Shown: positions 5,720 through 23,804 of the stretch, in pieces
Layout: every line of letters begins with the position of its first letter
How positions within the stretch are numbered: the stretch's first letter is position 1
Origin: Eubacterium sp.
Lineage (GTDB): Bacteria > Bacillota > Clostridia > Lachnospirales > Lachnospiraceae
Reading direction: 5' to 3'
Assembly (NCBI GenBank): GCA_017539165.1
Contig: JAFYHN010000104.1
Coordinates: forward strand, 51,388-115,387
DNA: 64,000 nt
The notes under the pieces: generated by a model
Told to the model about the DNA's origin: nothing
Database searches by the model: none
The model's input: only the letters and a program-made list of their open reading frames with translations
Translations under genes and position numbers: made by a program

Positions 5720-8700
5720 ATGAGGAAACGACTACAAATAATTAAGAGAGCATCGGTTACAGTGCTCGTTGCAGCTATGATGACAAACTGCACGACGGTG
5801 ACCGGTGATTTTTTTAGTTGCCCTTTATTTGTAAAGGCTGCTGAAGAAGAGGAATATGAGGAACACACCCAAACAGACGGTGTAAATGAGCATACAAAGA
5901 CTGATGCAGCCGTTATCGATTTCGAAGATGACACCCCATATGAAATGCATTTTTTTGATGATATATTTTTAGAGAATCATCTTTATTTCAGTAATAAAAA
6001 TGCAATGATTGAAGAGTGTTCGGATGGGATTCATATAAGTGGAAAGAATAAGGACTTACAAGGACAGAGACTAATTATAGGTAAGAAGTTTGACTTTGAA
6101 GAAGGTGCCTGCACAATGTATTTTGATGCTATTTCCAAAAGAGGAAAAAAGGTTATGGCAAAGTTTTATCTGGATGATGAAGAGACTCCTTTTGCAGAGT
6201 ATAAACTTCCGCTACAGAAAAAGAAAGATGATTGGTCAACTGATGGTGAGATGCGTATAGAGCTACCGGCGAATGTTCTGACAGGTGAACATTCGATTTC
6301 AATAGAGTTTTATGATGAAGATACTTTGCCGGATAAGAATACAGAAGTATCTCTTAGAGACTTTGTATTTTTTAAGCAGACAGGTATTCCGGTAATGGAT
6401 ATCAATATAGATGAATCATATACGCCTATCGATGATATGAATGAGGATATGGCTCATGCAACAGAATGCTATGGAAAGATAAGCATTTTTGTGCCAGAAG
6501 GATTCAACAGCGGATATAGTGACGAAGGGCAGACTGAATACACCGGTGGTGAGTATAAGCTTGATTATATCCGTGGACGAGGTAACTCGACATGGGGTGA
6601 GAGTAAGAAACCATATAAGATTAAGCTTGAAGAAGCGGCTAATCTTTTTGGTATGGGAACGGATAAGCATTGGACTCTTATAGCGAATCATTTTGATAAC
6701 AGTCTTATTCGAAACAGAATTACATATTATCTCGGAGAAAAGCTGGGGATGGAATATACACCACAGATTGTTCCGATAGATGTAAATATGAATGGTGAAT
6801 ATATCGGTAGTTATTATCTATGTGAACAGATAAGAATAGGTTCATCAAGAGTTGATCTGGATGATCTGGAGAATATTGAGTCAGACAGTGAAGATATATC
6901 AGGTGGATATCTTTTGCAATTCGACTCGGGAAGTGCTAATGATGGTTACAATTTCTTTACACATATGGAGATGCCCCTTCAAGTGGCATCTCCAAAGGAG
7001 ATATCAAACAGTAATATTTCCGAAGCTAAACTAGATGAGATGAACCAATATATTGAAGAATATGTAAATAAAACAGAAGAGGCAATATATGGAGATGATT
7101 TTAAAGATACTGAGGGAAAGCCGTATACGGAATATCTGGATCTGGATTCTGCTGCAAAGTATTATCTGATTCAGGGATTTTCACGTAATAATGATGCGTA
7201 TTATACTTCAAGCACATATTTGTATAAGAAAAAGAATGGTAAACTCTATTGGGGCCCTCTGTGGGATTTTGATTTTGTTGCATGGGGATCATATGACTAT
7301 ACAAAGGATCCGAGATCATGGGGGGCATATATACCTTCGTGTTCTTGGTTCAATAGATTATTGCTTAATGAAGAGTTCAGAAACAAAGTTCTTGAAGTAT
7401 GGGGAGGACAGGATAGTGAAGATCCTTCGACATTATACTATCAGCTAAATGAACTTATAAAAGAAGGAGGAATTCTTGATCAGTATGAGGCTCAGATGAC
7501 GACCTCTGCAGAAAACAACTTTGCAAAATGGGGAATGACTTCGTTTGAAAATAACAATGAAGAATACGAAGGGGAGATGTTTAGTTGTGAAAATTACCAT
7601 GATGAAATCGAAAGGTTGAGAACATGGATTTCCAAACGTATGGAATGGTTTGATAAAACCATCAATGATAAAAGTAAATGCAGATTCTATGATGGAGATG
7701 AGCTGGTATTTGAAACAGATATATATATGGGACAAGTTCCTGCTTCTGAGCCTGAAAATCCACAAAAGGATGGTTATGTATTTGATGGATGGTATCCTAA
7801 AAACGTGGATGAGGAACACGAGGATGGGGAGTTTTATGCTAAGTGGATTCCGGAAAACGAAATCATAAATCTGGAAAAAATCCATGTTTTGGAAAAAGAG
7901 ATTTATATGGAAGTGGCACAAGATACAGATATTTCTTATTCGTTAATACCGGAAGGGGCATGGTTAGGACCGCAGGGTGAGAGAATAACTCTTGTATCAT
8001 CTGATGAAAGTATAGTTTCAGTGCTAGAAAAGACAATATATGCAAATGACGTAGGAGATGCGGAGATTACTGTTTGTTCACCTGGAGGGATTACAGAAAC
8101 AATAATTGTTCATGTTTTGCCTGAAATACCGGAAGAACAAGAAGTCATTGTTAATATAAATGAAAAAGATGTTGAGATGAAACTCGGAGAAACAAAAGCA
8201 ATAGATTTTAATGTTGAACCGGAGATACATTTACCATTGAATATTCGAACAGCTAATCTTAATCCTGAAGTGGCAAGTATGGATGAGACAGGTGTGATAA
8301 CAGCAAAATCTGTTGGAAAGGCATATATAGTCGTCTTTTATAATGATAGTGATGAAAATATAGTTATCAAAGTAGATGTCAAAGCGGGTGAAGAGGATAA
8401 ACCTGATATACAATTACAAACAGAGGATAAAGAAAAGAAAAATCCTGAAGCTGAGACCATAGATGCGGTTTCTAAAGATAAGCCTGATAAGAAGAAAGAT
8501 GACACAAATACGTCTGAAAAGAATAAAAAGACTAAGGTTGAAAAGCTGAAGAAGGGAACCGAATTTGAGAAGGGTAACCTTAAGTATGAAGTTACCAAGG
8601 CCGGAAAACTAAAGAATGGTAAGGTGACCGGTGGAAAGGTCAGGGTTGTAGGTTTTTCTGCCAAAGGAGTTAAGGCTAAAACTGTTACAGTGAAAGATAC

Positions 8701-9010
8701 TATTTCCTATGAGGGGAATACATTTAAGATAACAGAAGTATGTAATAAGGCATTTACTGGAAATGACAATATCACTAAAGTTACAATAGGTAAAAATGTA
8801 ACAAGAATAGGAAAATGTGCATTCAATGAATGCGAGAATCTGAAAAAACTGGTTATTAAAGGAAAGAATGTAAAGTTTAGGAGAAAAGCATTCAAGGGTA
8901 CAAATGTGAATCTTAAGGCATATGTTCCTGCCGCGAAGCTGAAAACATATAAAAAACGTCTTTCTAAAGTAGGACTTACTAAAGAACAGGTTGTCAGAAA
9001 AGAAAAGTAA
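5720..9010 (+). CDS. CotH-family surface protein with InlB/Big_2/BspA modules
   Basis: This 1096-residue secreted protein has an N-terminal hydrophobic signal with a possible lipobox (AAMMTNC). An acidic region is followed by a jelly-roll-like segment (about 75-215) and a CotH domain (about 240-570) with the typical RGRGNSTW and KKPYKIKLEE motifs. CotH proteins of spore coats are atypical kinases; in anaerobic gut bacteria such fusions sit on the cell surface or in cellulosome-like systems. Next come an InlB-type repeat (DGYVFDGWYP, about 655-715), two Ig-like group 2 (Big_2) modules (to about 895), a Lys/Glu linker, and BspA-type leucine-rich repeats (about 990-1075). No sortase motif is seen. 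The gene stands alone between repeat elements and terminators. Its substrate is unknown. Confidence 0.85.
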   Translation: MRKRLQIIKRASVTVLVAAMMTNCTTVTGDFFSCPLFVKAAEEEEYEEHTQTDGVNEHTKTDAAVIDFEDDTPYEMHFFDDIFLENHLYFSNKNAMIEECSDGIHISGKNKDLQGQRLIIGKKFDFEEGACTMYFDAISKRGKKVMAKFYLDDEETPFAEYKLPLQKKKDDWSTDGEMRIELPANVLTGEHSISIEFYDEDTLPDKNTEVSLRDFVFFKQTGIPVMDINIDESYTPIDDMNEDMAHATECYGKISIFVPEGFNSGYSDEGQTEYTGGEYKLDYIRGRGNSTWGESKKPYKIKLEEAANLFGMGTDKHWTLIANHFDNSLIRNRITYYLGEKLGMEYTPQIVPIDVNMNGEYIGSYYLCEQIRIGSSRVDLDDLENIESDSEDISGGYLLQFDSGSANDGYNFFTHMEMPLQVASPKEISNSNISEAKLDEMNQYIEEYVNKTEEAIYGDDFKDTEGKPYTEYLDLDSAAKYYLIQGFSRNNDAYYTSSTYLYKKKNGKLYWGPLWDFDFVAWGSYDYTKDPRSWGAYIPSCSWFNRLLLNEEFRNKVLEVWGGQDSEDPSTLYYQLNELIKEGGILDQYEAQMTTSAENNFAKWGMTSFENNNEEYEGEMFSCENYHDEIERLRTWISKRMEWFDKTINDKSKCRFYDGDELVFETDIYMGQVPASEPENPQKDGYVFDGWYPKNVDEEHEDGEFYAKWIPENEIINLEKIHVLEKEIYMEVAQDTDISYSLIPEGAWLGPQGERITLVSSDESIVSVLEKTIYANDVGDAEITVCSPGGITETIIVHVLPEIPEEQEVIVNINEKDVEMKLGETKAIDFNVEPEIHLPLNIRTANLNPEVASMDETGVITAKSVGKAYIVVFYNDSDENIVIKVDVKAGEEDKPDIQLQTEDKEKKNPEAETIDAVSKDKPDKKKDDTNTSEKNKKTKVEKLKKGTEFEKGNLKYEVTKAGKLKNGKVTGGKVRVVGFSAKGVKAKTVTVKDTISYEGNTFKITEVCNKAFTGNDNITKVTIGKNVTRIGKCAFNECENLKKLVIKGKNVKFRRKAFKGTNVNLKAYVPAAKLKTYKKRLSKVGLTKEQVVRKEK

Positions 9011-13473: not shown

Positions 13474-14526
13474 TTATACGATTTCAAGAATTGTATTGAC
13501 CATCAGATCGTTCTGTTTTGGATTCATGAAGCAGAATCTGATGTACTTGTTTGAAAGTCCTCGGATGTCATCGCATTTTCGGATGATGATTCCACGCTGA
13601 TTGCAGTGCATTGCTACGTCTGCGGCTGTAATATCATCTTTGAGAAGTTTTACAAGCATGAAATTCGCATCCGGCTTAAACAGATGAATACTTCTGCTGG
13701 TTGACATTGCGAGATACACAAGTGATCTTTCTGTGTGGATAGTTGACTGTGACTGGGTTATATAATCATCGTCTTTTAACATATCCGTAATTGCGATAGC
13801 GGTGAGCGAATCTATATTGTTTTTCGTCTTAATGATGTCGATTTTTTCTTTGTATGCCGGATTACTCATGATAGCATATGCGAATCTGAGTCCGGGAACA
13901 GAGAAAAATTTTGACACGCTTCTTATTACGGCGAGATTATCATAAACCTGGGCAAGACCGGTTGCTGTAAATGCCTCATAATTCTCAGTGAACTCAATAT
14001 ACATTTCATCAACAATGAGGAAAATGCCCTTCTTCTTACAGGTATCCGTGATTTTAGTTATGTCTTCCAGCGATATACGTTTAGAAGTTGGATTATTCGG
14101 ATTGCTTATTATAACCATATCCAGGTCATCGGTTATGGCGTTAATAAAATCACTGGTATTCAGTGCGAATTCGTCCTCTTCCTTGAGATTGAAGTATACG
14201 ATATCTGTGTTATTGGAAGAAAGAACTCTGGTATATTCAGTTGGTCCTGGTGAAAGCAGAAGTGCTTTGCGCGGAGAAATAAGCGCAGTAAAAAGCTTGA
14301 GAAGATCATTGGATCCATTTCCCATAATTATGTGTTCCAACGATGCATTAACATACTCTGCCACAGTTTTTTTAAGCTTTGTATAATAGATGTCGGGGTA
14401 TTTGGAAATAGAACTGATGTTCTGCTGAATAGCGCGAGTCACGGAACCAGGGATGCCACGGGGATTCAGATTTGCATTGAAAAGAACGGTTTCATATTGC
14501 TCTATCCTCAGCGGACTGGAATTCAT
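13474..14526 (-). CDS. class I/II PLP-dependent aminotransferase, HisC/CobD-like
   Basis: This 350-residue fold type I PLP enzyme has YPD near residue 43, a cofactor-contact GNGSND motif (about 69), ISNPNNPTS (about 140), the DEMYIEF aspartate region, and the Schiff-base lysine in RSVSKFFSVPGLRFAY. These features fit histidinol-phosphate aminotransferases and the related threonine-phosphate decarboxylase CobD. No histidine or cobalamin genes are adjacent, so the substrate is undecided. The start has a good GGAGG site (CTGGAGGAAAA). It is divergent from the DUF5717-like gene. Confidence 0.8.
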   Translation of the reverse strand: MNSSPLRIEQYETVLFNANLNPRGIPGSVTRAIQQNISSISKYPDIYYTKLKKTVAEYVNASLEHIIMGNGSNDLLKLFTALISPRKALLLSPGPTEYTRVLSSNNTDIVYFNLKEEDEFALNTSDFINAITDDLDMVIISNPNNPTSKRISLEDITKITDTCKKKGIFLIVDEMYIEFTENYEAFTATGLAQVYDNLAVIRSVSKFFSVPGLRFAYAIMSNPAYKEKIDIIKTKNNIDSLTAIAITDMLKDDDYITQSQSTIHTERSLVYLAMSTSRSIHLFKPDANFMLVKLLKDDITAADVAMHCNQRGIIIRKCDDIRGLSNKYIRFCFMNPKQNDLMVNTILEIV

Positions 14527-14554: not shown

Positions 14555-14583
14555 TTTAAAACTCTGGCCTAATCTGATATAAT
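14555..14583 (+). promoter_or_regulatory. candidate promoter of the three-gene cassette
   Basis: TTTAAA, 17 bp, TATAAT in the divergent intergenic region, about 80 bp before the first cassette gene. Confidence 0.5.
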
Positions 14584-14660: not shown

Positions 14661-17600
14661 ATGAAGGCTATAGTAGAACAATATGCAAAGGGACAGTTTA
14701 AGATAGACCGGCCGGAGGTTTATATCTCCGAGCAGAATTTCAAGATCAATATTGAAGCCGGCACCGTATACGAGGGACAGTTCCTGATAGAGAGCAGGAA
14801 CAATTACCCGATAAAAGGTATGGTGTACGACAGCAGATACATGCTTCGCTTTGAAGATCACAGCTTTATAAGCAGGAACTTCACAGTGAAGTATACTTTT
14901 GATGCTACTTGTCTGGAAGCCGGTCAGAATTTCCGCGGACATATAAATGTCATAACAGACGGTGGTGAGTGGAGGCTTCCATATGATATCAGCATAGTTC
15001 CTTCGTGTGTAAAGTACCATGATGAGAAGATTGATGATCTATTTAAGTTCGCTTCCCTTGCGGAAAGAAACTGGAATGATGCGGCAAGACTATTCGTCAA
15101 TGACGATTTCCGCCGTACTTTCATCTATAAGGAGACGCTTATTAAAAAGATGTATGAGAGTCTTCTTGAGAGCCGTTCAGTTAATCAGGCTATGGAAGAA
15201 TTTCTTGTTCTTGTTTCCAAGAAACGTACAGTTACTCTGTCTGTATCTAAACCTAAGATAGATATCGATATGCCAAGAGAGACAGAGAGCATAACTGTTG
15301 ATATATCAAAGAATACCTGGGGTTATACATTTTCAGAGATATATTCCGATTCGGAATTTATTATTCCATCGAAGAAGACCATATCAGCAAAAGACTTTTC
15401 GGGAAATGTATGCTCACTCAAGGTTTACATTTCACCTGAGCATGTTCCGGATGGAGAGAACTCAGGAAAGCTTATAATTGAGAATATATATCAAAGGATA
15501 GAGGTTGAGATACATCTTGCAAAACCTCTGTCTGTTCGTTCGAATACTGAATATCGTATGCGACTTCAGGATTATAAGAAGAGCAGATCTACGATCACCA
15601 GAGCTTATATTGATTTCAGAATGGATAGAATATCTCTTGATGAGTATATTTCCAAGAATATCGAAGCTCTTGGTAAGCTGAATGACCTCGAACCTGAAGA
15701 GGATATGTACCGGCTTGGCATAATGCATATGAATATTCTGGCGGGTGAAGGCTCCAGGGTGGAGCAGGAATTCATGCGTATTGAAGCAGATGTCGACAAG
15801 GACAGTATGAGCAACCAGCAGTTGTGTTACTATAACTATCTCAAGGCTATGGTAACCAAGGATGAAGAGATTACTCAGCAGGCTGCAAATGTCATCCGAA
15901 GGAATTACAGAACTCAGGAACCAAAGATGTTCTATTTCTGGCTTCTTCTCTTTGTTGACCAGACATATACAGAAGATAAACCTGCTCTGTACAGAGAACT
16001 TGCGCAGATGTACAACGAGGGCGAGAACAGTCCTATCATATATTTCGAGTTGTGTAACCTGTTCAATTCGAATCCGATGCTTCTAAAGAAGCTCACTCCT
16101 TATGAGATAACTGCTATCAAGTGGGGACTCAGAAAGAAGTTTATCTCAGATGAAGTTCTTCTCGAGTTTGTAAAACTCGCAGGAAAGAATAAAGATTTCA
16201 ATAAACAGATATTCTCCGTGCTTCGTGAGATTTACGATAAGAATGAAGCAGAGCTCAGAGCTCAGCGCCTTAAGATCGCAGAATCCAGAGGACTTAGCGA
16301 GAGTGATCTGTATGACATTCCTTTAAAAGAAACAGACGGTGTAAAGATTTCGTCTATACATGAGTACGATGATGAATCTCTTGAGGATATGCCATTTGAA
16401 TTTGGACAGACAAAGGATTCAGAACTGGCTGATGTTTCGACTGAGACAAAAGAATCTGATGCGACAGAGAATGACGATCCGTGGGGATTTGGCGATGCAG
16501 AGGAAGAGGTTGAATCTGAGGATGAAGCTGAAACTCTCAGTGCAGAGATTGACGAGGGACTGGAAGATGAAGGGGAAGAGGACTTTATCGGCAGTCTGAG
16601 TGATTCGATAAGAGGTAATGTAAATAAATCACAGTCTATATCCGATATCCTTAAACAGGGAGAGGATGAGGCTGAGATAAAGGATGAGCCAATCGATTCG
16701 AAACTTGATGCGGCTGTTCGTGCAGATGTGGCAGAGAAACTGTCACGTAAGGAGAATGAGAACCTGGAAGTTCTTTCGAGTATATGCTCCATGCTCATTT
16801 CTGCAAATATGCTCGATCATAAGTATCACAGATTTTACAAGGCTGCAGTACTTAGAAGCCTCAAGTTTATCGGTTTAAATGAGTGCTACATCAGAAGTAT
16901 GAATATGAAGAGGTATGATCTGATACCTACATCAGTTCTTATGTACCTCAATTATAAGAATACACTTACTGAGGATGAACTTGCTTATCTTTATGCAAAT
17001 GTAATCTTCAATAAGTCCGAACATATGAAGATTTATCATGAATATGCTCCAACTATGGAGGATTTCATGGAGAATATGATAGTAAAGGGCAAGGTAAATG
17101 ATGACCTGACGGTTATCTATGATGAATTCCTTGAGCCGGAGAATGTAAGCTCGCTTTACGCAGGTAAGCTTATCAATATCATTTTCAGAAGAAAGATCGT
17201 ATGTACGAACAAGAATCTGGCTGCGGTAATCGTAAGTCATGAGGAACTTCAGAACGATCAGAGAGTTCCACTTGTGAATGGTGAAGCGTATGTAGAGATT
17301 CTTTCCGAAAATGCCTCTATCATATTTGAGGATAAGAATGGAAACAGATACGCTGGATCTATACCGTATCATTTTGAACGGATAGTTGATGAGAAAGCAT
17401 ATATGCCAATATGCAGGGAGTACAGTCCTAGAGATTTCAGAGTACTTCTCTTCAACTATGAAAGTATAGGTCAGTTTACTTACAGAAGCGCCAAAGAAGT
17501 AAATGCTGCCAGAGAGATAATCCAGTGTGATGAGATCTCTTACGAGTATAAGCAGATGGCGTGTCTGAACATTATCGAGTATTATCATGAGAATCTTGAT

Positions 17601-18737
17601 ACTGACGTTCTTGCGAAGTATCTGAGCAAACTCGATATCGAGTATCTGACACATGCAAATGCCAGAACAGTCATCACATATCTTATCGATATGAACATGT
17701 TCGCTAAAGCGTTTCAGGCTGTTAAACTATATGGATTTAACGAGCTGGATGTAAATGAGCTTTACCGACTTGCTGATTACGGTGTTACTGATGCGGATGG
17801 CTTCGTCAATGAAGACCTTCTGTCTATCTGTATAAACCTCTATAAGACAGGAACGGTAAATGTAAATATCCTGGGATATCTTACATCAAACTTCAAGGGA
17901 AGCCTTGAGGAACTGGCAGACCTCTTTAAGCTGGCTAAGGACAGAGTTTCTGATGTTGGACAGCTTGCGGAGAACACACTTGCTCAGATGATGTTTGCCA
18001 ATACATATGACGAATACATCTACGATATATTTATAACTTATTACGGTGGAAGAAGCAGAGGACTTGTTGTTAAGGCATTTACAAGGCTATCAGCATACAA
18101 TTATCTTGTAAAAGATGCTCAGGTGCCGAACTTCATCTTCGATGCTATGTTCCAGGAAGTTATCAAGGGTAATATTGACGACGAGATCTCAAATATGGCA
18201 TTGCTGCTTTATTTCAGCAAGCTTGAGAGATTTACGGATGTTCAGAAGAAATGGATAGAAGATAATGTTGCTAAGTTTGTGGATGCAGGTAAGATCCTGC
18301 CGTTCTTCAAAAACTTTGCATCATTCATCAGACTTCCTCAGGATGTATTCCTTAAGACATATCTTGTTTACAAGAGTGAAAATGAGAGACAGGTATTTGC
18401 TCTCTTCAGTTTTGATACAGGAACAAGAAGTAAGCAGAGAATCGAAAGAAGACGACTTGAAGAAGTTGTTACTGGAGTTTATGTTCTGGAATTCGTTGTA
18501 TTCCACGGTGAACGCCTTGTGTACTCTATCGAGGATGATCCGAATGGAAATGCCAAGATAGTTGAATCAGAGGTTCTGAAGAAGAAGTCATTTGCCAGCA
18601 AGAATCTGAGCAGATTCGAGCAGATAAATTCTATGCTTGTAAAGCAGGAGATGAGAAAAGACAGAGAGCTTCTTGAAGATCTTGATGTATACATCAATAC
18701 AGTTCATCTGTTCGAAGAAACTTTGCGGATTTTATAA
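14661..18737 (+). CDS. giant beta-sandwich/alpha-solenoid protein, DUF5717-like
   Basis: 1358 residues with no signal peptide and no membrane segments, so probably cytosolic. Residues about 1-115 and 195-300 look like two beta-sandwich (Ig-like) domains (YEGQFLIESRNNYPIKGMVY; SGKLIIENIYQRIEVEIHL). The remainder to residue 1220 is mostly helical, like a solenoid of degenerate TPR units, broken by a very acidic Ser/Glu/Asp linker at about 565-690. The C-terminus (about 1225-1358) is mixed alpha/beta. It resembles the Lachnospiraceae family I recall as DUF5717, of unknown function. It is followed by an Hsp70-like gene and a TPR-like gene, which suggests a large adaptor or scaffold of a chaperone-like complex (inference). 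Confidence 0.7.
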   Translation: MKAIVEQYAKGQFKIDRPEVYISEQNFKINIEAGTVYEGQFLIESRNNYPIKGMVYDSRYMLRFEDHSFISRNFTVKYTFDATCLEAGQNFRGHINVITDGGEWRLPYDISIVPSCVKYHDEKIDDLFKFASLAERNWNDAARLFVNDDFRRTFIYKETLIKKMYESLLESRSVNQAMEEFLVLVSKKRTVTLSVSKPKIDIDMPRETESITVDISKNTWGYTFSEIYSDSEFIIPSKKTISAKDFSGNVCSLKVYISPEHVPDGENSGKLIIENIYQRIEVEIHLAKPLSVRSNTEYRMRLQDYKKSRSTITRAYIDFRMDRISLDEYISKNIEALGKLNDLEPEEDMYRLGIMHMNILAGEGSRVEQEFMRIEADVDKDSMSNQQLCYYNYLKAMVTKDEEITQQAANVIRRNYRTQEPKMFYFWLLLFVDQTYTEDKPALYRELAQMYNEGENSPIIYFELCNLFNSNPMLLKKLTPYEITAIKWGLRKKFISDEVLLEFVKLAGKNKDFNKQIFSVLREIYDKNEAELRAQRLKIAESRGLSESDLYDIPLKETDGVKISSIHEYDDESLEDMPFEFGQTKDSELADVSTETKESDATENDDPWGFGDAEEEVESEDEAETLSAEIDEGLEDEGEEDFIGSLSDSIRGNVNKSQSISDILKQGEDEAEIKDEPIDSKLDAAVRADVAEKLSRKENENLEVLSSICSMLISANMLDHKYHRFYKAAVLRSLKFIGLNECYIRSMNMKRYDLIPTSVLMYLNYKNTLTEDELAYLYANVIFNKSEHMKIYHEYAPTMEDFMENMIVKGKVNDDLTVIYDEFLEPENVSSLYAGKLINIIFRRKIVCTNKNLAAVIVSHEELQNDQRVPLVNGEAYVEILSENASIIFEDKNGNRYAGSIPYHFERIVDEKAYMPICREYSPRDFRVLLFNYESIGQFTYRSAKEVNAAREIIQCDEISYEYKQMACLNIIEYYHENLDTDVLAKYLSKLDIEYLTHANARTVITYLIDMNMFAKAFQAVKLYGFNELDVNELYRLADYGVTDADGFVNEDLLSICINLYKTGTVNVNILGYLTSNFKGSLEELADLFKLAKDRVSDVGQLAENTLAQMMFANTYDEYIYDIFITYYGGRSRGLVVKAFTRLSAYNYLVKDAQVPNFIFDAMFQEVIKGNIDDEISNMALLLYFSKLERFTDVQKKWIEDNVAKFVDAGKILPFFKNFASFIRLPQDVFLKTYLVYKSENERQVFALFSFDTGTRSKQRIERRRLEEVVTGVYVLEFVVFHGERLVYSIEDDPNGNAKIVESEVLKKKSFASKNLSRFEQINSMLVKQEMRKDRELLEDLDVYINTVHLFEETLRIL

Positions 18738-18801
18738 GGCAGCTATTCACCGGCTTAACGAGATTATTTACTACGGCGAATAGTAACAGGAGGAGATACA
18801 C

Positions 18802-20055
18802 ATGGCAGACGTGTTCTACATAGGTATGGATCTGTGTTCGGATTTTACACAGTTATCTTACTATAACGACATAAAAAGAGAACCGGAATCGGTCAGCCAG
18901 CTGAACAACAAAGAGACATATCTGATGCCGAATATTCTGTTCTTCAGTACAGATACTGAACACTGGTATGTGGGCGGTGAAGCCTCAGAGGCCAGATTCA
19001 ACGAAAATGGTACGGTAGTTGATGGGATATTTGAGAATCTTGAAAACAACGATACTATAACAGTAGCGGGTAAGGATTATACATATCAGGAACTCTTTAT
19101 GATGATGGTAAAACTGCATATAGACTCGTTCCTTTACAGATATGAGACTGCTGAGATCAAGAAGCTTGTTATATCGGTTGATGATTATAATCCGCTTATA
19201 TTCAGATTGCTCGGCAGACTATACGAGACTATGGGAGTAAGCAAAGAGACTATAGAACTTACCAGTCATCTGGACAGTGGTCTGTATTATATATTCAATC
19301 AGCCGTCAGAACTGTGGAATAACAGCGTGGCACTTTATGATTATAGTGCCGACGGACTGAACTATTACAGAATTGACATAGCTAAAAACAGAGATCCAAA
19401 GAGTATAACCGTTATTCATGAAGACTATCAGGAACAGATGTCACTTTCCAAGTATGGAAATGACACTTATCAGATGGATATAGACTTTGCAAAGATTGCT
19501 GAGTACGAAGGCAAGAAGGCATACATTTCCGCGGTCTTCCTTACTGGTGTTGGTTTTTCAAACAAATGGATGAAAAAGTCGACAAATGTTCTCTGCCAGG
19601 GACGACGAGTCTTTGTCGGACAGAACATCTATACTAAGGGGGCCTGCTACAGAGCGGTTGCTGGTGAATACAGATCGTTCTACGATGAATACTTTATTGA
19701 GACGAAGGAGAATGTCCTTGCCGATATAGGTATTACTCTTATGGATGAGAAGGATACATTTGTCCCTATCATCAGCGGTGGAAAACAGTGGTACAATACC
19801 TATGGTAAGTTAAATGTCATCATGGATGATACGGATAAGATTACTATAGTCTATAAGAATCACAAGACCGAAGAAGAGAAGAGGGAGACTGTTCGTATCC
19901 ATGGACTTCCAAAGCGACCAAATAAGACAACGAAGCTTAGTCTTGAAGTTGAATTCGAGAGTCCGAAGGAAGGCGCAGTCATCATCAAGGATATGGGATT
20001 TGGAAAGCTTTTCCCTACCACTAACAAAATATATAGAAAGGAGTTTAAACTCTGA
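18802..20055 (+). CDS. degenerate Hsp70/actin-fold protein, DUF5716-like
   Basis: 417 residues. The order of motifs follows Hsp70: FYIGMDLCSDFTQLSY stands where phosphate-1 (DLGTT) is expected, MPNILFF for the MPSVV strand, VALYDYSADGLNYYRI for phosphate-2, and VFLTGVGFSNKWMKK with KGACYRA for the adenosine-motif helix. A beta-rich tail from about 300 (LADIGITL, FVPIISGGKQ) recalls the Hsp70 substrate-binding domain. The usual glycines and threonine of both phosphate loops are replaced, so ATP hydrolysis is doubtful. AGGAGG precedes the ATG. The stop overlaps the next start by one base (TGATG), which implies fixed stoichiometry with the TPR-like protein. Confidence 0.7.
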   Translation: MADVFYIGMDLCSDFTQLSYYNDIKREPESVSQLNNKETYLMPNILFFSTDTEHWYVGGEASEARFNENGTVVDGIFENLENNDTITVAGKDYTYQELFMMMVKLHIDSFLYRYETAEIKKLVISVDDYNPLIFRLLGRLYETMGVSKETIELTSHLDSGLYYIFNQPSELWNNSVALYDYSADGLNYYRIDIAKNRDPKSITVIHEDYQEQMSLSKYGNDTYQMDIDFAKIAEYEGKKAYISAVFLTGVGFSNKWMKKSTNVLCQGRRVFVGQNIYTKGACYRAVAGEYRSFYDEYFIETKENVLADIGITLMDEKDTFVPIISGGKQWYNTYGKLNVIMDDTDKITIVYKNHKTEEEKRETVRIHGLPKRPNKTTKLSLEVEFESPKEGAVIIKDMGFGKLFPTTNKIYRKEFKL

Positions 20056-20888
20056 TGTCGAAGATTATATTATGTACTTCAAAAACGGCAGAGACTCCTT
20101 TTACTTTCCTCAACACTAAGGTTGAGATATATACATATGAGGAGCTGTGCTTTTACATTTATAACAATACGGTTCTTATAAGTAAGTCATCTCTTTCTGA
20201 GAAACTCTTTGAGTGGATAAGGGATGAGCTCGGTATGGATGAACTTGCAGACAAGCTTTTAGGTATGATGAATAAGACTACCTATGCGCAGGATTTTCTT
20301 ATTGAAATTCTGAGTGCAGGAGAATACTATACCGTAGAAGAGATTAAGAACTATGCCGAAGCATGGCATAAGTACCGTAAGCTCGACCATCTTCAGAAGG
20401 CAAAGCTTAAGGCGGATGGTTATCTGGCATATAGACGTTATATTAAGGCTGCAACATTTTATGATGATATCATAGATGAAACCGATGAGAATACTGACCC
20501 CGTATTCCTTGGAAATATCTATCATAACAGAGGTGTTGCTGCTGCCAATAATATGGATATGGATGATGCAAAGGAGTATTTCCTTAAGGCCTTTGAGCTG
20601 AATGAAAATCCAGATTCCATTAAGAGCTACTTCTACATAGTGGCTATAACATCTGATACATCGACACTCAGGACTGAGATCAGAGACCAAGGTTTTCCTG
20701 ATGAATATCTGGATGAGATCATGGCTGAGATCGGAGAATCGAAGGATGATGTTAGAGAGATGACGATCTTTGCAATGCTTCAGAGAGCAGCGTATAACAA
20801 GATGAATAAAGATATGACGGACTATGATAAGAGAATGGATATTATTCTTAGTGAGCTTAAAGATGATTTCCGTGAGCAAGCTATATAA
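20055..20888 (+). CDS. TPR-like protein, third gene of the Hsp70-like cassette
   Basis: 277 residues, soluble, acidic. A small alpha/beta N-terminal part (about 1-95) precedes helical TPR-like repeats at about 110-210 (KLKADGYLAYRRYIKAATFY; NIYHNRGVAAANNMDMDDAK), then a helical C-terminus. Its ATG overlaps the TGA of the Hsp70-like gene, so translation is coupled. TPR proteins commonly partner Hsp70s as co-chaperones, which supports a complex of the three products (inference). I do not recognise a named family. Confidence 0.7.
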   Translation: MSKIILCTSKTAETPFTFLNTKVEIYTYEELCFYIYNNTVLISKSSLSEKLFEWIRDELGMDELADKLLGMMNKTTYAQDFLIEILSAGEYYTVEEIKNYAEAWHKYRKLDHLQKAKLKADGYLAYRRYIKAATFYDDIIDETDENTDPVFLGNIYHNRGVAAANNMDMDDAKEYFLKAFELNENPDSIKSYFYIVAITSDTSTLRTEIRDQGFPDEYLDEIMAEIGESKDDVREMTIFAMLQRAAYNKMNKDMTDYDKRMDIILSELKDDFREQAI

Positions 20889-21134: not shown

Positions 21135-23804
21135 ATGAGTAAGGAACTGGAAAAGAATTACAATCCTGCTGAGATTGAAGGCAGGTTATATCAGAAGTGG
21201 ATAGATAAAGGTTACTTCCACGCTGAGGTGGATAGAAGTAAGAAACCTTTTACAATCGTGATGCCACCTCCAAATATAACCGGACAGCTCCATATGGGAC
21301 ATGCTTTTGATAATACAATGCAGGATATCCTTATTCGTATGAAGAGAATGCAGGGCTATAATGCTCTGTGGCAGCCGGGAACTGATCATGCAGCTATCGC
21401 TACAGAGGTTAGAGTTATTGAGAATCTTAAGGAACAGGGAATCAGTAAGGATGACCTGGGACGTGAAGGATTCTTGAAGAGAGTATGGGACTGGCGTGAG
21501 GAGTATGGTGGACGTATCGTTAATCAGCTTAAGAGAATGGGTTCTTCTGCTGATTGGGACAGAGAACGTTTCACTATGGACGAAGGAAATAACAAAGCTG
21601 TAAATACGGTTTTCAAGAAGCTGTATGACAAGGGCTGGATTTATAAGGGATCTCGTATAGTTAACTGGTGCCCTGTTTGTCAGACTACTATTTCTGATGC
21701 TGAGGTTGAGCATGAGGAGCAGAATGGTAACTTCTGGCACATCAATTATCCAGTAGTTGGCGAAGAGGGAAGATTTGTAGAAATAGCAACAACTCGTCCG
21801 GAGACTCTTCTTGGTGATACAGCTGTCGCTGTAAATCCTGATGATGAAAGATATGCAGACATAATTGGAAAGACTCTTCTTCTTCCGCTTGTAAACAGAG
21901 AGATTCCAGTTATTGCTGATTCATATGTAGATAAGGAGTTTGGAACAGGATGCGTTAAGATTACTCCTGCTCATGACCCTAACGACTTTGAGGTTGGAAA
22001 GCGTCATAACCTTGAAGAGATAAATATCATGAATGATGATGCTACTATCAATTGTCCTGAAACAAGATATCATGGCATGGATAGATATGAGGCCCGTAAG
22101 GCAGTTCTTGAGGATCTTGAGGCTCAGGGGCTTCTTGTAAAGGTTGTTCCTCATGTTCATCAGGTTGGTACTCATGATAGATGTGGAACTACAGTTGAGC
22201 CGCTCATCAAGCCTCAGTGGTTTGTAAAGATGGATGAGATGGCAGCTCGTGCCCGTAAGGTTGTTGAGACTGGCGAAGTAAAGTTAGTTCCAGAAAGAAT
22301 GAATAAGATTTACTACAACTGGCTGGATAACATCCGTGACTGGTGTATATCAAGACAGCTGTGGTGGGGACATAGAATTCCAGCCTGGTATTGCCAGGAT
22401 TGTGGTGAGACTATCGTAGAGATGGAAGCTCCATGCTGCTGTCCAAAATGTCAGAGCAAGAATCTGAAGCAGGATGAAGATACTCTTGATACATGGTTCT
22501 CATCGGCACTTTGGCCATTTTCAACACTTGGATGGCCTGATACAGAGTGTGGGGACTATAAGTATTTCTTCCCAACAGATGTACTTGTAACTGGTTATGA
22601 TATCATTTTCTTCTGGGTTATCAGAATGGTATTCTCTTCACTTGAGCAGACCGGAGAAGTTCCGTTTCATACAGTTCTCTTCCACGGACTCATCCGTGAT
22701 GAGCAGGGAAGAAAGATGAGCAAGTCTCTCGGAAATGGTATCGATCCTATAGAAGTTATCGATAAGTACGGTGCAGATGCGCTGAGATTCATGATCATTA
22801 CAGGAAATGCTCCTGGTAACGATATGCGTTTCATCTGGGACAGACTTGAGGCAAGTCGTAACTTTGCTAATAAGATCTGGAATGCTTCAAGATTTATCAT
22901 GATGAATATGCCTGCTGAAGATGCTTCTTCAGGTCTTACAATGGATGCTATAAATTCAGTTAAACTTGAAGATCTTACAATGGCTGATAAGTGGATTATC
23001 GCCAAAGCTAATCAGGTGGTTCGTGATGTTACAGATAACATGGAGAAGTTCGAGCTCGGTATCGCAGCTGATAAGATCCATGACTTCCTTTGGGATGAGT
23101 TCTGTGACTGGTATATAGAGATGGTTAAGCCGAGACTCTGGGCTGAAGATGATAACACAAAGGCTGCTGCACTCTGGACTCTGAGAGAGGTTCTTTCAAT
23201 CGGACTTAAGCTTCTTCATCCTTATATGCCATTTGTTACTGAAGAGATTTATTGTACTCTTACAGATGATGAATCTATCATGGTTGCAGACTGGCCAGTA
23301 GCTGATGAGGCAAGAGACTTCAAGGTTGAAGCAGAGAATGTCGACATTATCAAGAATGCCGTTAGAGCAATAAGAACAGTAAGAACAGACATGAATGTTC
23401 CACCTTCAAGAAAGGCTGCAGTTTATGTTGTTTCTGATAAAGAAGATATTCGCAAGATATTTGAAGAGAGTAAGGTATTCTTTGGAACCCTCGGATATGC
23501 AAGTGAAGTAAATGTACAGGCTGATAAGGCGGGAATCGCAGATGATGCTGTTTCAGCGGTTATCCATAATGCGGTTATTTACATTCCATTTGCGGATCTC
23601 GTGGATATAGATAAAGAGCTTGAAAGACTCGGTAAGGAGAAAGCTCGTCTTGAGGGCGAGATCAAGCGTGGTGAGGGGATGCTCAGCAATCCTAACTTCG
23701 TAGAGAAAGCTCCTGAGGCTAAGGTAAATGCCGAGAAAGAAAAACTCGCTAAGTACAAGGAAACATACGCTCAGGTATGCGAGAGAATTGAAGCTCTTAA
23801 ATAA
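21135..23804 (+). CDS. valS: valine-tRNA ligase
   Basis: This 889-residue class I synthetase contains PPPNITGQLHMGHAFD (HIGH motif), KMSKSLGNG (KMSKS), the editing (CP1) domain (about 190-340), a zinc-type CxxC cluster (about 415-445: WYCQDCG, CCCPKC), and a C-terminal coiled coil (about 815-889) that is typical of ValRS. The length is normal for the Firmicutes form. The start is supported by AGAGGAAAAAG. A structured 169-bp element lies upstream, but no T-box. Confidence 0.96.
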   Translation: MSKELEKNYNPAEIEGRLYQKWIDKGYFHAEVDRSKKPFTIVMPPPNITGQLHMGHAFDNTMQDILIRMKRMQGYNALWQPGTDHAAIATEVRVIENLKEQGISKDDLGREGFLKRVWDWREEYGGRIVNQLKRMGSSADWDRERFTMDEGNNKAVNTVFKKLYDKGWIYKGSRIVNWCPVCQTTISDAEVEHEEQNGNFWHINYPVVGEEGRFVEIATTRPETLLGDTAVAVNPDDERYADIIGKTLLLPLVNREIPVIADSYVDKEFGTGCVKITPAHDPNDFEVGKRHNLEEINIMNDDATINCPETRYHGMDRYEARKAVLEDLEAQGLLVKVVPHVHQVGTHDRCGTTVEPLIKPQWFVKMDEMAARARKVVETGEVKLVPERMNKIYYNWLDNIRDWCISRQLWWGHRIPAWYCQDCGETIVEMEAPCCCPKCQSKNLKQDEDTLDTWFSSALWPFSTLGWPDTECGDYKYFFPTDVLVTGYDIIFFWVIRMVFSSLEQTGEVPFHTVLFHGLIRDEQGRKMSKSLGNGIDPIEVIDKYGADALRFMIITGNAPGNDMRFIWDRLEASRNFANKIWNASRFIMMNMPAEDASSGLTMDAINSVKLEDLTMADKWIIAKANQVVRDVTDNMEKFELGIAADKIHDFLWDEFCDWYIEMVKPRLWAEDDNTKAAALWTLREVLSIGLKLLHPYMPFVTEEIYCTLTDDESIMVADWPVADEARDFKVEAENVDIIKNAVRAIRTVRTDMNVPPSRKAAVYVVSDKEDIRKIFEESKVFFGTLGYASEVNVQADKAGIADDAVSAVIHNAVIYIPFADLVDIDKELERLGKEKARLEGEIKRGEGMLSNPNFVEKAPEAKVNAEKEKLAKYKETYAQVCERIEALK

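Follow-up and report, generated by a model that had tools for sequence, protein, structure and literature searches.

A degenerate Hsp70 and its neighboring genes in Lachnospiraceae appear to be the remnant of a multi-Hsp70 operon of Lachnospirales

Results

The three-gene cassette

We analyzed a 64,000-nucleotide stretch of contig JAFYHN010000104.1 (positions 51,388 to 115,387, forward strand) from a Eubacterium sp. of the Lachnospiraceae (NCBI GenBank assembly GCA_017539165.1), which we refer to as the window. It contains a cassette of three consecutive genes, all on the plus strand, that encode a DUF5717 protein, a DUF5716 protein and a tetratricopeptide repeat (TPR) protein, the last two genes overlapping by 1 base (TGATG). 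A first-pass annotation, made from the letters of the window alone, had seen in these genes an undescribed chaperone-like or scaffold complex built around a degenerate Hsp70-like protein, and our data support that interpretation. Comparisons with other genomes further indicate that DUF5716 is a true but degenerate Hsp70, and that the cassette is probably orthologous to, and a reduced remnant of, an eight-gene Hsp70 machine found in other families of Lachnospirales, with DUF5716 derived from one of its members, Hsp70-B.

The coordinates, lengths, strand and overlap of the three open reading frames (ORFs; Table 1) were exactly as in the first-pass annotation, and the family names it had given were the right ones. 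In Pfam searches the DUF5717 protein matched PF18984 (DUF5717_N; E 1.8e-274, 913.2 bits) and PF18983 (DUF5717; E 2.1e-62, 211.5 bits), against a curated cut-off of 25, and the DUF5716 protein matched PF18980 (DUF5716_C; E 4.4e-98, 328.3 bits against a cut-off of 34.7). All three are described as being of "unknown function" in their Pfam family lines, in keeping with the annotation. The third protein had been read as TPR-like. By itself it reached TPR_1 only at 8.2e-5, under the cut-off of that family, but a profile of 23 of its relatives matched solved TPR proteins, and the corresponding protein of one full-operon relative (locus L275) matched PF07719 at 2.5e-24. NCBIfam matches for the three window proteins were all far under cut-off, PDB searches with the single DUF5716 and DUF5717 sequences gave weak, unrelated matches only (best E 0.03 and 0.3, respectively), and a simple hydropathy scan found no transmembrane stretch in any of the three.

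Table 1. Features of the cassette and its flanks (positions in the window)
Feature	Position	Strand	Description
DUF5717 protein	14661..18737	+	1358 amino acids; PF18984 and PF18983; likely scaffold
DUF5717 N-terminal part, beta-sandwich-like	14661..15569	+	residues 1-303; homologue of the separate Sand protein
DUF5717 C-terminal domain	17811..18716	+	residues 1051-1352; PF18983
DUF5716 protein, degenerate Hsp70	18802..20055	+	417 amino acids; nucleotide-binding part without lobe IIB, and beta part of the substrate-binding domain; no lid
Phosphate-1 loop, altered	18823..18846	+	GMDLCSDF, DnaK GIDLGTTN; by alignment
Phosphate-2 loop, altered	19339..19362	+	DYSADGLN, DnaK DLGGGTFD; by alignment
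Stretch without lobe IIB in DUF5716	19363..19539	+	from the spacing between phosphate-2 and adenosine motifs
Adenosine-motif position	19540..19560	+	LTGVGFS, DnaK LVGGSTR; G249 retained, arginine lost; by alignment
C-terminal part of DUF5716, like the beta part of the substrate-binding domain	19687..20052	+	GLPKRPNKTTKL...DMGFGKLFP stretch common to Hsp70-B and Hsp70-C; by hhalign
TPR protein	20055..20888	+	277 amino acids; homologue of the ~387-amino-acid TPR protein closing the full operon
TATAAT promoter-like site	14555..14583	+	78 bases 5' of the first ATG; consensus scan only
CobD/HisC-like aminotransferase (flank, outside the cassette)	13474..14526	-	divergent; also adjoins the operon in other families
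Valine-tRNA ligase gene (flank, outside the cassette)	21135..23804	+	putative identification

DUF5716 as a degenerate Hsp70

The kinship of DUF5716 with Hsp70 was recovered by profile comparison. We built a profile (A5) from 44 Lachnospiraceae DUF5716 sequences; for this profile and for the trees below, sequences of 330-470 amino acids only were admitted and 4 fused ORFs among 90 loci were dropped. Searched against the PDB at E<=10, A5 gave 12 matches, all of them heat-shock proteins. Eight were named DnaK, the best at 1.6e-8 and six at 1.6e-8 to 5.6e-7. The other four were named putative heat shock protein (E 0.013-0.028), and we take these entries to be fungal Ssz1. In hhalign comparisons A5 aligned with Hsp70-B of the operon described below with a probability of 100, with Hsp70-C at 99.9 and with the DnaK of the window's own genome at 94.5; the single control, a solenoid profile, scored 0.1. 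The alignments span the nucleotide-binding domain and the beta part of the substrate-binding domain (SBD-beta), nearly the whole length of the protein, and place DUF5716 in the Hsp70 superfamily, as the first-pass annotation had proposed from the order of its motifs.

DUF5716 nevertheless differs from a canonical ATP-hydrolyzing Hsp70 in its catalytic lysine, phosphate loops, lobe IIB and lid. When DUF5716 proteins were aligned to the DnaK of the window's genome, the position of DnaK Lys-70 was lysine in none of 87. The altered phosphate loops noted in the first-pass annotation are real and line up with those of DnaK (Table 1), and across the 87 rows the phosphate-2 loop has no common sequence. 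A median of 61 residues separates the phosphate-2 and adenosine motifs, where DnaK has 133, and lobe IIB is thus missing; DnaK positions 235-245 are gaps in all 87 rows. Likewise, about 125 residues follow DnaK position 360 in DUF5716 against 256 in DnaK, and the protein therefore appears to have no lid. The SBD-beta part is retained and holds some of the best conserved positions.

Distribution and contiguity in Lachnospiraceae

We surveyed 250 Lachnospiraceae genomes from 249 genera for the two DUF families. Of these, 244 contain DUF5716_C and 245 contain DUF5717_N; 242 genomes had both, three (G318, G380 and G512) had neither, and five had one only. Four of those five are 67-70% complete, and the fifth, G387, is 99% complete. 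In G387 we observed DUF5717 (E 4.4e-150) with no DUF5716 match and a weak TPR match, which may be either a lone scaffold or a contig break. The three genomes without either DUF also gave no match to the TPR-protein profile, save short, weak and generic TPR stretches in G318. Among 291 genomes sampled across the class, only 10 members of Lachnospiraceae passed the cut-off for either DUF. We attribute to general TPR similarity both a weak DUF5717_N match in G116, which fell under the cut-off, and four weak class-level matches of the solenoid outside Lachnospiraceae, which spanned ~80-140 profile positions of the TPR region. Record titles among the nearest relatives include Lachnospiraceae bacterium and Eubacterium ruminantium.

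All of 60 loci picked for long contigs among the matches listed, each from a different genus, carry the three genes side by side on the same strand. The genes were also contiguous in 73 of 78 further loci, so the neighborhood survey suggested by the first-pass annotation found them travelling together in this family. Three of the five exceptions are cut by contig ends (L052, L087, L089); in L088 the DUF5716 ORF stops at 249 amino acids, less than about 1 kb from where the contig ends, and in L038 the DUF5717 ORF ends early. In 30 of 30 genomes with weaker DUF5716 matches, a TPR match lay beside or within the DUF5716 ORF. Four of these divergent genomes (G466, G502, G360, G332) encode the two in a single frame of 690-727 amino acids, and these fusions support a model in which the TPR protein would bind DUF5716. 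One DUF5716 profile took in fused ORFs and for that reason also scored TPR proteins weakly.

Close relatives showed strong purifying selection on all three genes, with median ratios of nonsynonymous to synonymous substitution (dN/dS) of 0.034 for DUF5717, 0.026 for DUF5716 and 0.038 for the TPR protein, calculated from the pairs with usable dS (13 of 351, 18 of 666 and 24 of 630, respectively). Given this selection and the contiguity in 60 of 60 loci, the cassette is not a product of chance.

A multi-Hsp70 operon in other families of Lachnospirales

The first-pass annotation had assigned the system to Lachnospiraceae, and in this respect it has to be amended, as fuller versions occur in other families of the order. 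In an order-level sample of 116 genomes, the DUF5717 C-terminal domain was present in 62, of which 51 lie outside Lachnospiraceae. DUF5716_C was found in 59 (55 over cut-off), although some of the weak matches stem from Hsp70-C. Both DUFs were found in 59 genomes, DUF5717 only in three (G540, G577, G596), DUF5716_C only in none, and neither in 54.

We determined the layout of the genes from loci fetched for 28 of these 51 genomes outside the family. The usual order is Sand, Sol, Hsp70-A, a GrpE-domain protein, Hsp70-B, Hsp70-C, Hsp70-D and a TPR protein of ~387 amino acids. Sand (~400 amino acids) matches the start of DUF5717_N and Sol (~890 amino acids) matches the remainder of DUF5717. Sol, A, GrpE, B, C and D occur in this order in 20 of the 28 genomes, and the TPR protein was recognized in 17. 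Four of the remaining eight (G539, G540, G545, G597) are cut by contig or locus ends. In G621, Hsp70-B and C lie further along the same contig; a run of lipoprotein-like genes with similar starts was observed there (locus L272, 14114-18001), after the GrpE gene and before the B and C matches. G602 has Sand-Sol-A-GrpE-B at the locus and a second DUF5716_C match on another contig, G548 has Sand-Sol-B only, and G608 has Sol without adjoining Hsp70s.

The identities of the operon proteins are supported by Pfam. At locus L265, Hsp70-A, C and D matched HSP70 at 2e-67, 8.5e-61 and 5.4e-92, respectively, and the GrpE domain was matched at 2.6e-11 (5.4e-12 at L254). Hsp70-B of L265 matched both HSP70 (5.4e-11) and DUF5716_C (2.1e-19). 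The phosphate loops of Hsp70-A, C and D are intact, and these proteins have lysine at the Lys-70 position in 25 of 25, 20 of 20 and 21 of 21 cases, against none of 21 for Hsp70-B. Judged by length, A, B and C have no DnaK-like lid; in D a von Willebrand factor A (vWA) domain, matched by Pfam behind the Hsp70 part in L275, starts at the lid position.

The DUF5717 protein of the window corresponds to a fusion of Sand and Sol, which are mostly separate genes in the other families. PF18984 is matched over profile positions 1-302 by the N-terminal part of the window DUF5717, 12-283 by Sand of L289 and 28-276 by Sand of L265, and fused Sand-Sol forms also occur outside Lachnospiraceae (L290, L273). 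That the N-terminus is a beta-sandwich is suggested by the look of its sequence. We also observed an acidic low-complexity stretch in the window DUF5717 (16323-16730, about residues 555-690), and its open frame of 1366 amino acids compares with mostly 1175-1230 in the genera among the matches listed.

Descent of the cassette

In a maximum-likelihood tree of 44 rows, hand-picked to span the groups, DUF5716 formed one group (support 100/99) that was sister to the Hsp70-B of genome G538 (100/100) and lay inside Hsp70-B (100/100). Hsp70-B stood next to Hsp70-C (100/100), and Hsp70-A and D formed separate groups. A larger quick tree of 91 rows agreed, but the inner order of Hsp70-B and DUF5716 is uncertain because of long branches and some rows with unusual composition. 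Since the Lys-70 position is lysine in none of the 21 Hsp70-B proteins, the degenerate state already existed in the paralogue that gave rise to DUF5716. The family of G538 is the nearest to Lachnospiraceae by the tree. In that genome Hsp70-D is split into two overlapping frames of 198 and 494 amino acids (L254, 840-2884) and the TPR protein into two of 123 and 195 (L254, 360-731; L278, 12205-13231), which represent either decay or assembly errors.

The flanking genes place the cassette and the full operon at the same locus. The divergent aminotransferase lies upstream in 30 of the 60 family loci, 28 of them at the same position, and in 13 of the 28 non-family genomes. The gene that we take to encode valine-tRNA ligase follows within the fetched region in 12 of the 60 and 3 of the 28. 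Four PF00012 matches were found in the window's genome, namely DnaK, an HscC-like protein and two weak ones taken for MreB. Hsp70-A, C and D are thus absent from the rest of that genome. The simplest history is that an ancestor of Lachnospiraceae fused Sand with Sol, lost Hsp70-A, GrpE, Hsp70-C and Hsp70-D, and retained Sol, Hsp70-B and the TPR protein. The disappearance of lobe IIB from DUF5716 parallels that of the GrpE-domain protein from the operon.

The HscC-like protein, so named by reading, is a 564-amino-acid Hsp70 with intact loops, encoded directly after a 490-amino-acid TPR-looking gene (L295, 2-3192, on contig C95, ~36 kb before the window); it makes a second Hsp70-TPR pair in this genome.

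Possible membrane partners and other features

In 22 of the 60 family loci, the TPR gene is followed by a gene for a protein of ~400 amino acids with two hydrophobic stretches between long arms that, by reading, look helical and coiled-coil-like (the two-TM protein, for two transmembrane stretches). A profile of this protein matched 94 of 200 family genomes, of which 4 matches were weak and partial, leaving 90. Outside Lachnospiraceae the gene was seen after the full operon in 4 of 28 genomes. Four examples of the protein reached no Pfam cut-off. Nine of the matches (in G459, G416, G307, G418, G368, G485, G399, G386 and G451) have a stop codon inside the matched stretch; the gene may have decayed repeatedly while the other cassette genes stayed. 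Upstream of the operon we noted a different protein, of ~440-480 amino acids, with a hydrophobic N-terminus and coiled-coil-like matches (L265, 12828-14150; L289, 196-1644), and a similar-looking one in L272 (4301-5614). It is possibly another membrane partner.

The TATAAT site before the cassette is not evidence of function, as 25 such sites were found in the region against 19.4 expected. A consensus search of the window for the CIRCE heat-shock element found none. Elsewhere in the window, positions 5720-9010 encode a protein of 1096 amino acids that presumably resembles exported CotH-type proteins and has a leucine-rich-like C-terminus.

Discussion

Overall, our data lead us to favor, with moderate confidence, a reading in which the cassette is what remains of a reduced Hsp70 machine and DUF5716 acts as a non-hydrolyzing, Ssz1-like clamp on a scaffold of DUF5717 and the TPR protein. 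Because the catalytic lysine position, both phosphate loops and lobe IIB are lost, DUF5716 would no longer hydrolyze ATP, and it would need no exchange factor. Its SBD-beta part would serve as a low-affinity clamp for a peptide or a partner, by analogy with Ssz1 in the ribosome-associated complex (RAC) of yeast, and DUF5717 and the TPR protein would keep it within a single cytoplasmic complex. The two-TM protein may tether this complex at the membrane in just under half of the genera. The clamp may pass clients to the housekeeping DnaK, or it may keep a fixed set of partners in place.

Several observations weigh against such a clamp on a common scaffold. The single DUF5716 sequence of the window does not reach PF00012, DUF5716_C being its sole match at E<=1. 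The adenosine-motif glycine is kept in 86 of 87 DUF5716 proteins and the phosphate-1 aspartate in 73 of 87. No J domain was found among the window or operon proteins scanned, which leaves the parallel with RAC without a Zuo1, and the two-TM protein has no profile match in the window's own genome. In other families the association of the genes is looser. Of the 48 non-family genomes with both, 34 have DUF5717 and DUF5716_C on the same contig and no more than 12 kb apart; among the remaining 14, contig ends interrupt six (G539, G545, G549, G595, G604, G623), and in eight the two are truly apart. Seven of these belong to one family, f82 (G558, G570, G599, G608, G617, G625, G632), and the eighth is G629; the operon is dispersed in them as Sand-Sol, (A-)GrpE-B, and C. 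Hsp70-B adjoins the GrpE-domain gene in all five dispersed loci seen (L336, L337, L338, L339 and L345, in G558, G599, G608, G625 and G632), and because it stays there it may still use the exchange factor. This is a hint that Hsp70-B and the GrpE-domain protein act together.

The same observation bears on the possibility that DUF5716 is still an ATP-driven Hsp70 with an unusual active site, which borrows the GrpE and DnaJ of the cell. The strong constraint on DUF5716, the canonical DnaK kept in the window's genome, the retained phosphate-1 aspartate and the persistence of Hsp70-B beside GrpE are all compatible with it. We nevertheless consider it quite improbable, given that the Lys-70 position is lysine in none of the 87 proteins, that the phosphate-2 loop has no common sequence, and that lobe IIB, the part of DnaK that GrpE contacts, is missing. 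Hsp70 and actin belong to the same superfamily, and the cassette could alternatively be a cytoskeletal or other structural assembly in which DUF5716 is an actin-like building block and DUF5717, joined by the two-TM protein in genomes that have it, forms the scaffold. This superfamily kinship, the large repeat scaffold, the neighboring two-TM protein with its long helical-looking arms in many genera and the vWA domain behind Hsp70-D would fit such an assembly, but a polymer subunit would not need the retained SBD-beta part, which holds some of the best conserved positions, and we regard this explanation as unlikely.

It is highly improbable, in our estimate, that the three genes are neighbors by inheritance only and act separately. 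Their order is an old one that matches the gene order of the full operon, so that adjacency alone is weak evidence of a complex, and in f82 the parts of the operon persist apart; the contiguity in 60 of 60 loci, the four fusions and the joint absence from three genomes speak for a common function. We give equally little credence to a fourth explanation, in which the full operon is a conflict or defense system akin to the Hsp70/GrpE systems of the GAP1-N2 group and the window holds a domesticated remnant. GAP1-N2 systems also join an HSP70, GrpE, a second HSP70 without a peptide-binding domain and TPR-fused repeat proteins (PMC7159879). There are also weak matches of Hsp70-C (2.1e-8), A (4.8e-4) and D (6.6e-4) to the PADLOC candidate model PDC-M61B, which we take for general Hsp70 likeness. 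Against a defense role, no GTPase or GAP1 domain was found in the operon proteins scanned, PADLOC matched none of the three window proteins, and the near-universal, mostly single-copy presence in the family is unlike that of a defense island.

Returning to the reduced machine with its clamp-like DUF5716, we think the odds slightly favor a wider proposal: that Lachnospirales possess an undescribed machine of three lidless Hsp70s with intact catalytic motifs (one with a vWA domain), a pseudo-Hsp70, a dedicated GrpE-domain protein, a beta-sandwich/TPR scaffold and sometimes a membrane protein, from which Lachnospiraceae shed the catalytic Hsp70s and the exchange factor while the pseudo-Hsp70 and the scaffold were kept as a nearly universal core. 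If this is true, the conserved function lies in the dead chaperone and its scaffold and not in ATP-driven folding. Two DUF families of no stated function, present in nearly every sampled genus of one of the main families of gut bacteria, would acquire an origin and a role open to testing. Natural stages of the process exist within the order, namely the full operon, the dispersed operon, a locus with Sand-Sol-B only and the form in the window, and the role of a pseudo-Hsp70 after the loss of its catalytic paralogues can therefore be asked about directly. Why pseudo-chaperones persist is a question that is thereby opened to experiment in cultured commensals.

The first-pass annotation had called the system undescribed, and the literature searched holds no account of it. 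The window proteins are members of Pfam DUF5717 and DUF5716, far over the curated cut-offs; what is new here is the link of these families to Hsp70, GrpE and the multi-Hsp70 operon. In open-licence literature, by titles and the starts of abstracts, nothing was found on either family or the operon, and the term "DUF5716" occurs once, in a paper on curcuma derivatives (PMC8115291). Published work on duplicated DnaK and on the Hsp70s of Myxococcus, in the sections accessible, contains no description of the Lachnospirales operon. Compared with the DnaK-DnaJ-GrpE system, the operon is similar in that the phosphate loops and the catalytic lysine are intact in Hsp70-A, C and D and a gene for a GrpE-domain protein lies between those for A and B. 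It differs in that the lid is lacking, no J protein is among those scanned and Hsp70-D is joined to a vWA domain, and the catalytic members are gone from the window's genome.

The nearest published architecture found is that of a subset of the GAP1-N2 GTPase systems, in which an HSP70, GrpE, a second HSP70-domain protein and FNIII-repeat proteins fused to TPR are neighbors (eLife 2020, PMC7159879). The combination of HSP70 and GrpE in one neighborhood is absent from the cassette of the window and present in the full operon. Unlike those systems, the operon has no TRAFAC GTPase or GAP1 component in the proteins scanned, which were a subset of the neighbors; it has four Hsp70s, one of them degenerate, and it occurs in Lachnospirales with its core in one family. 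For the single protein, the closest parallel is Ssz1 of the fungal RAC, which is described as an Hsp70 that binds ATP without hydrolyzing it, has no SBD-alpha lid, keeps SBD-beta, binds clients weakly and is fixed in a complex (PMC7083937). DUF5716 likewise appears to be without a lid, to keep its SBD-beta part and to be changed in its catalytic features. The cassette is not a member of the RAC family, as it has no J-domain partner among the proteins scanned; DUF5716 is bacterial, lacks lobe IIB, has DUF5717 and TPR proteins as its predicted partners and comes from an array of tandem paralogues.

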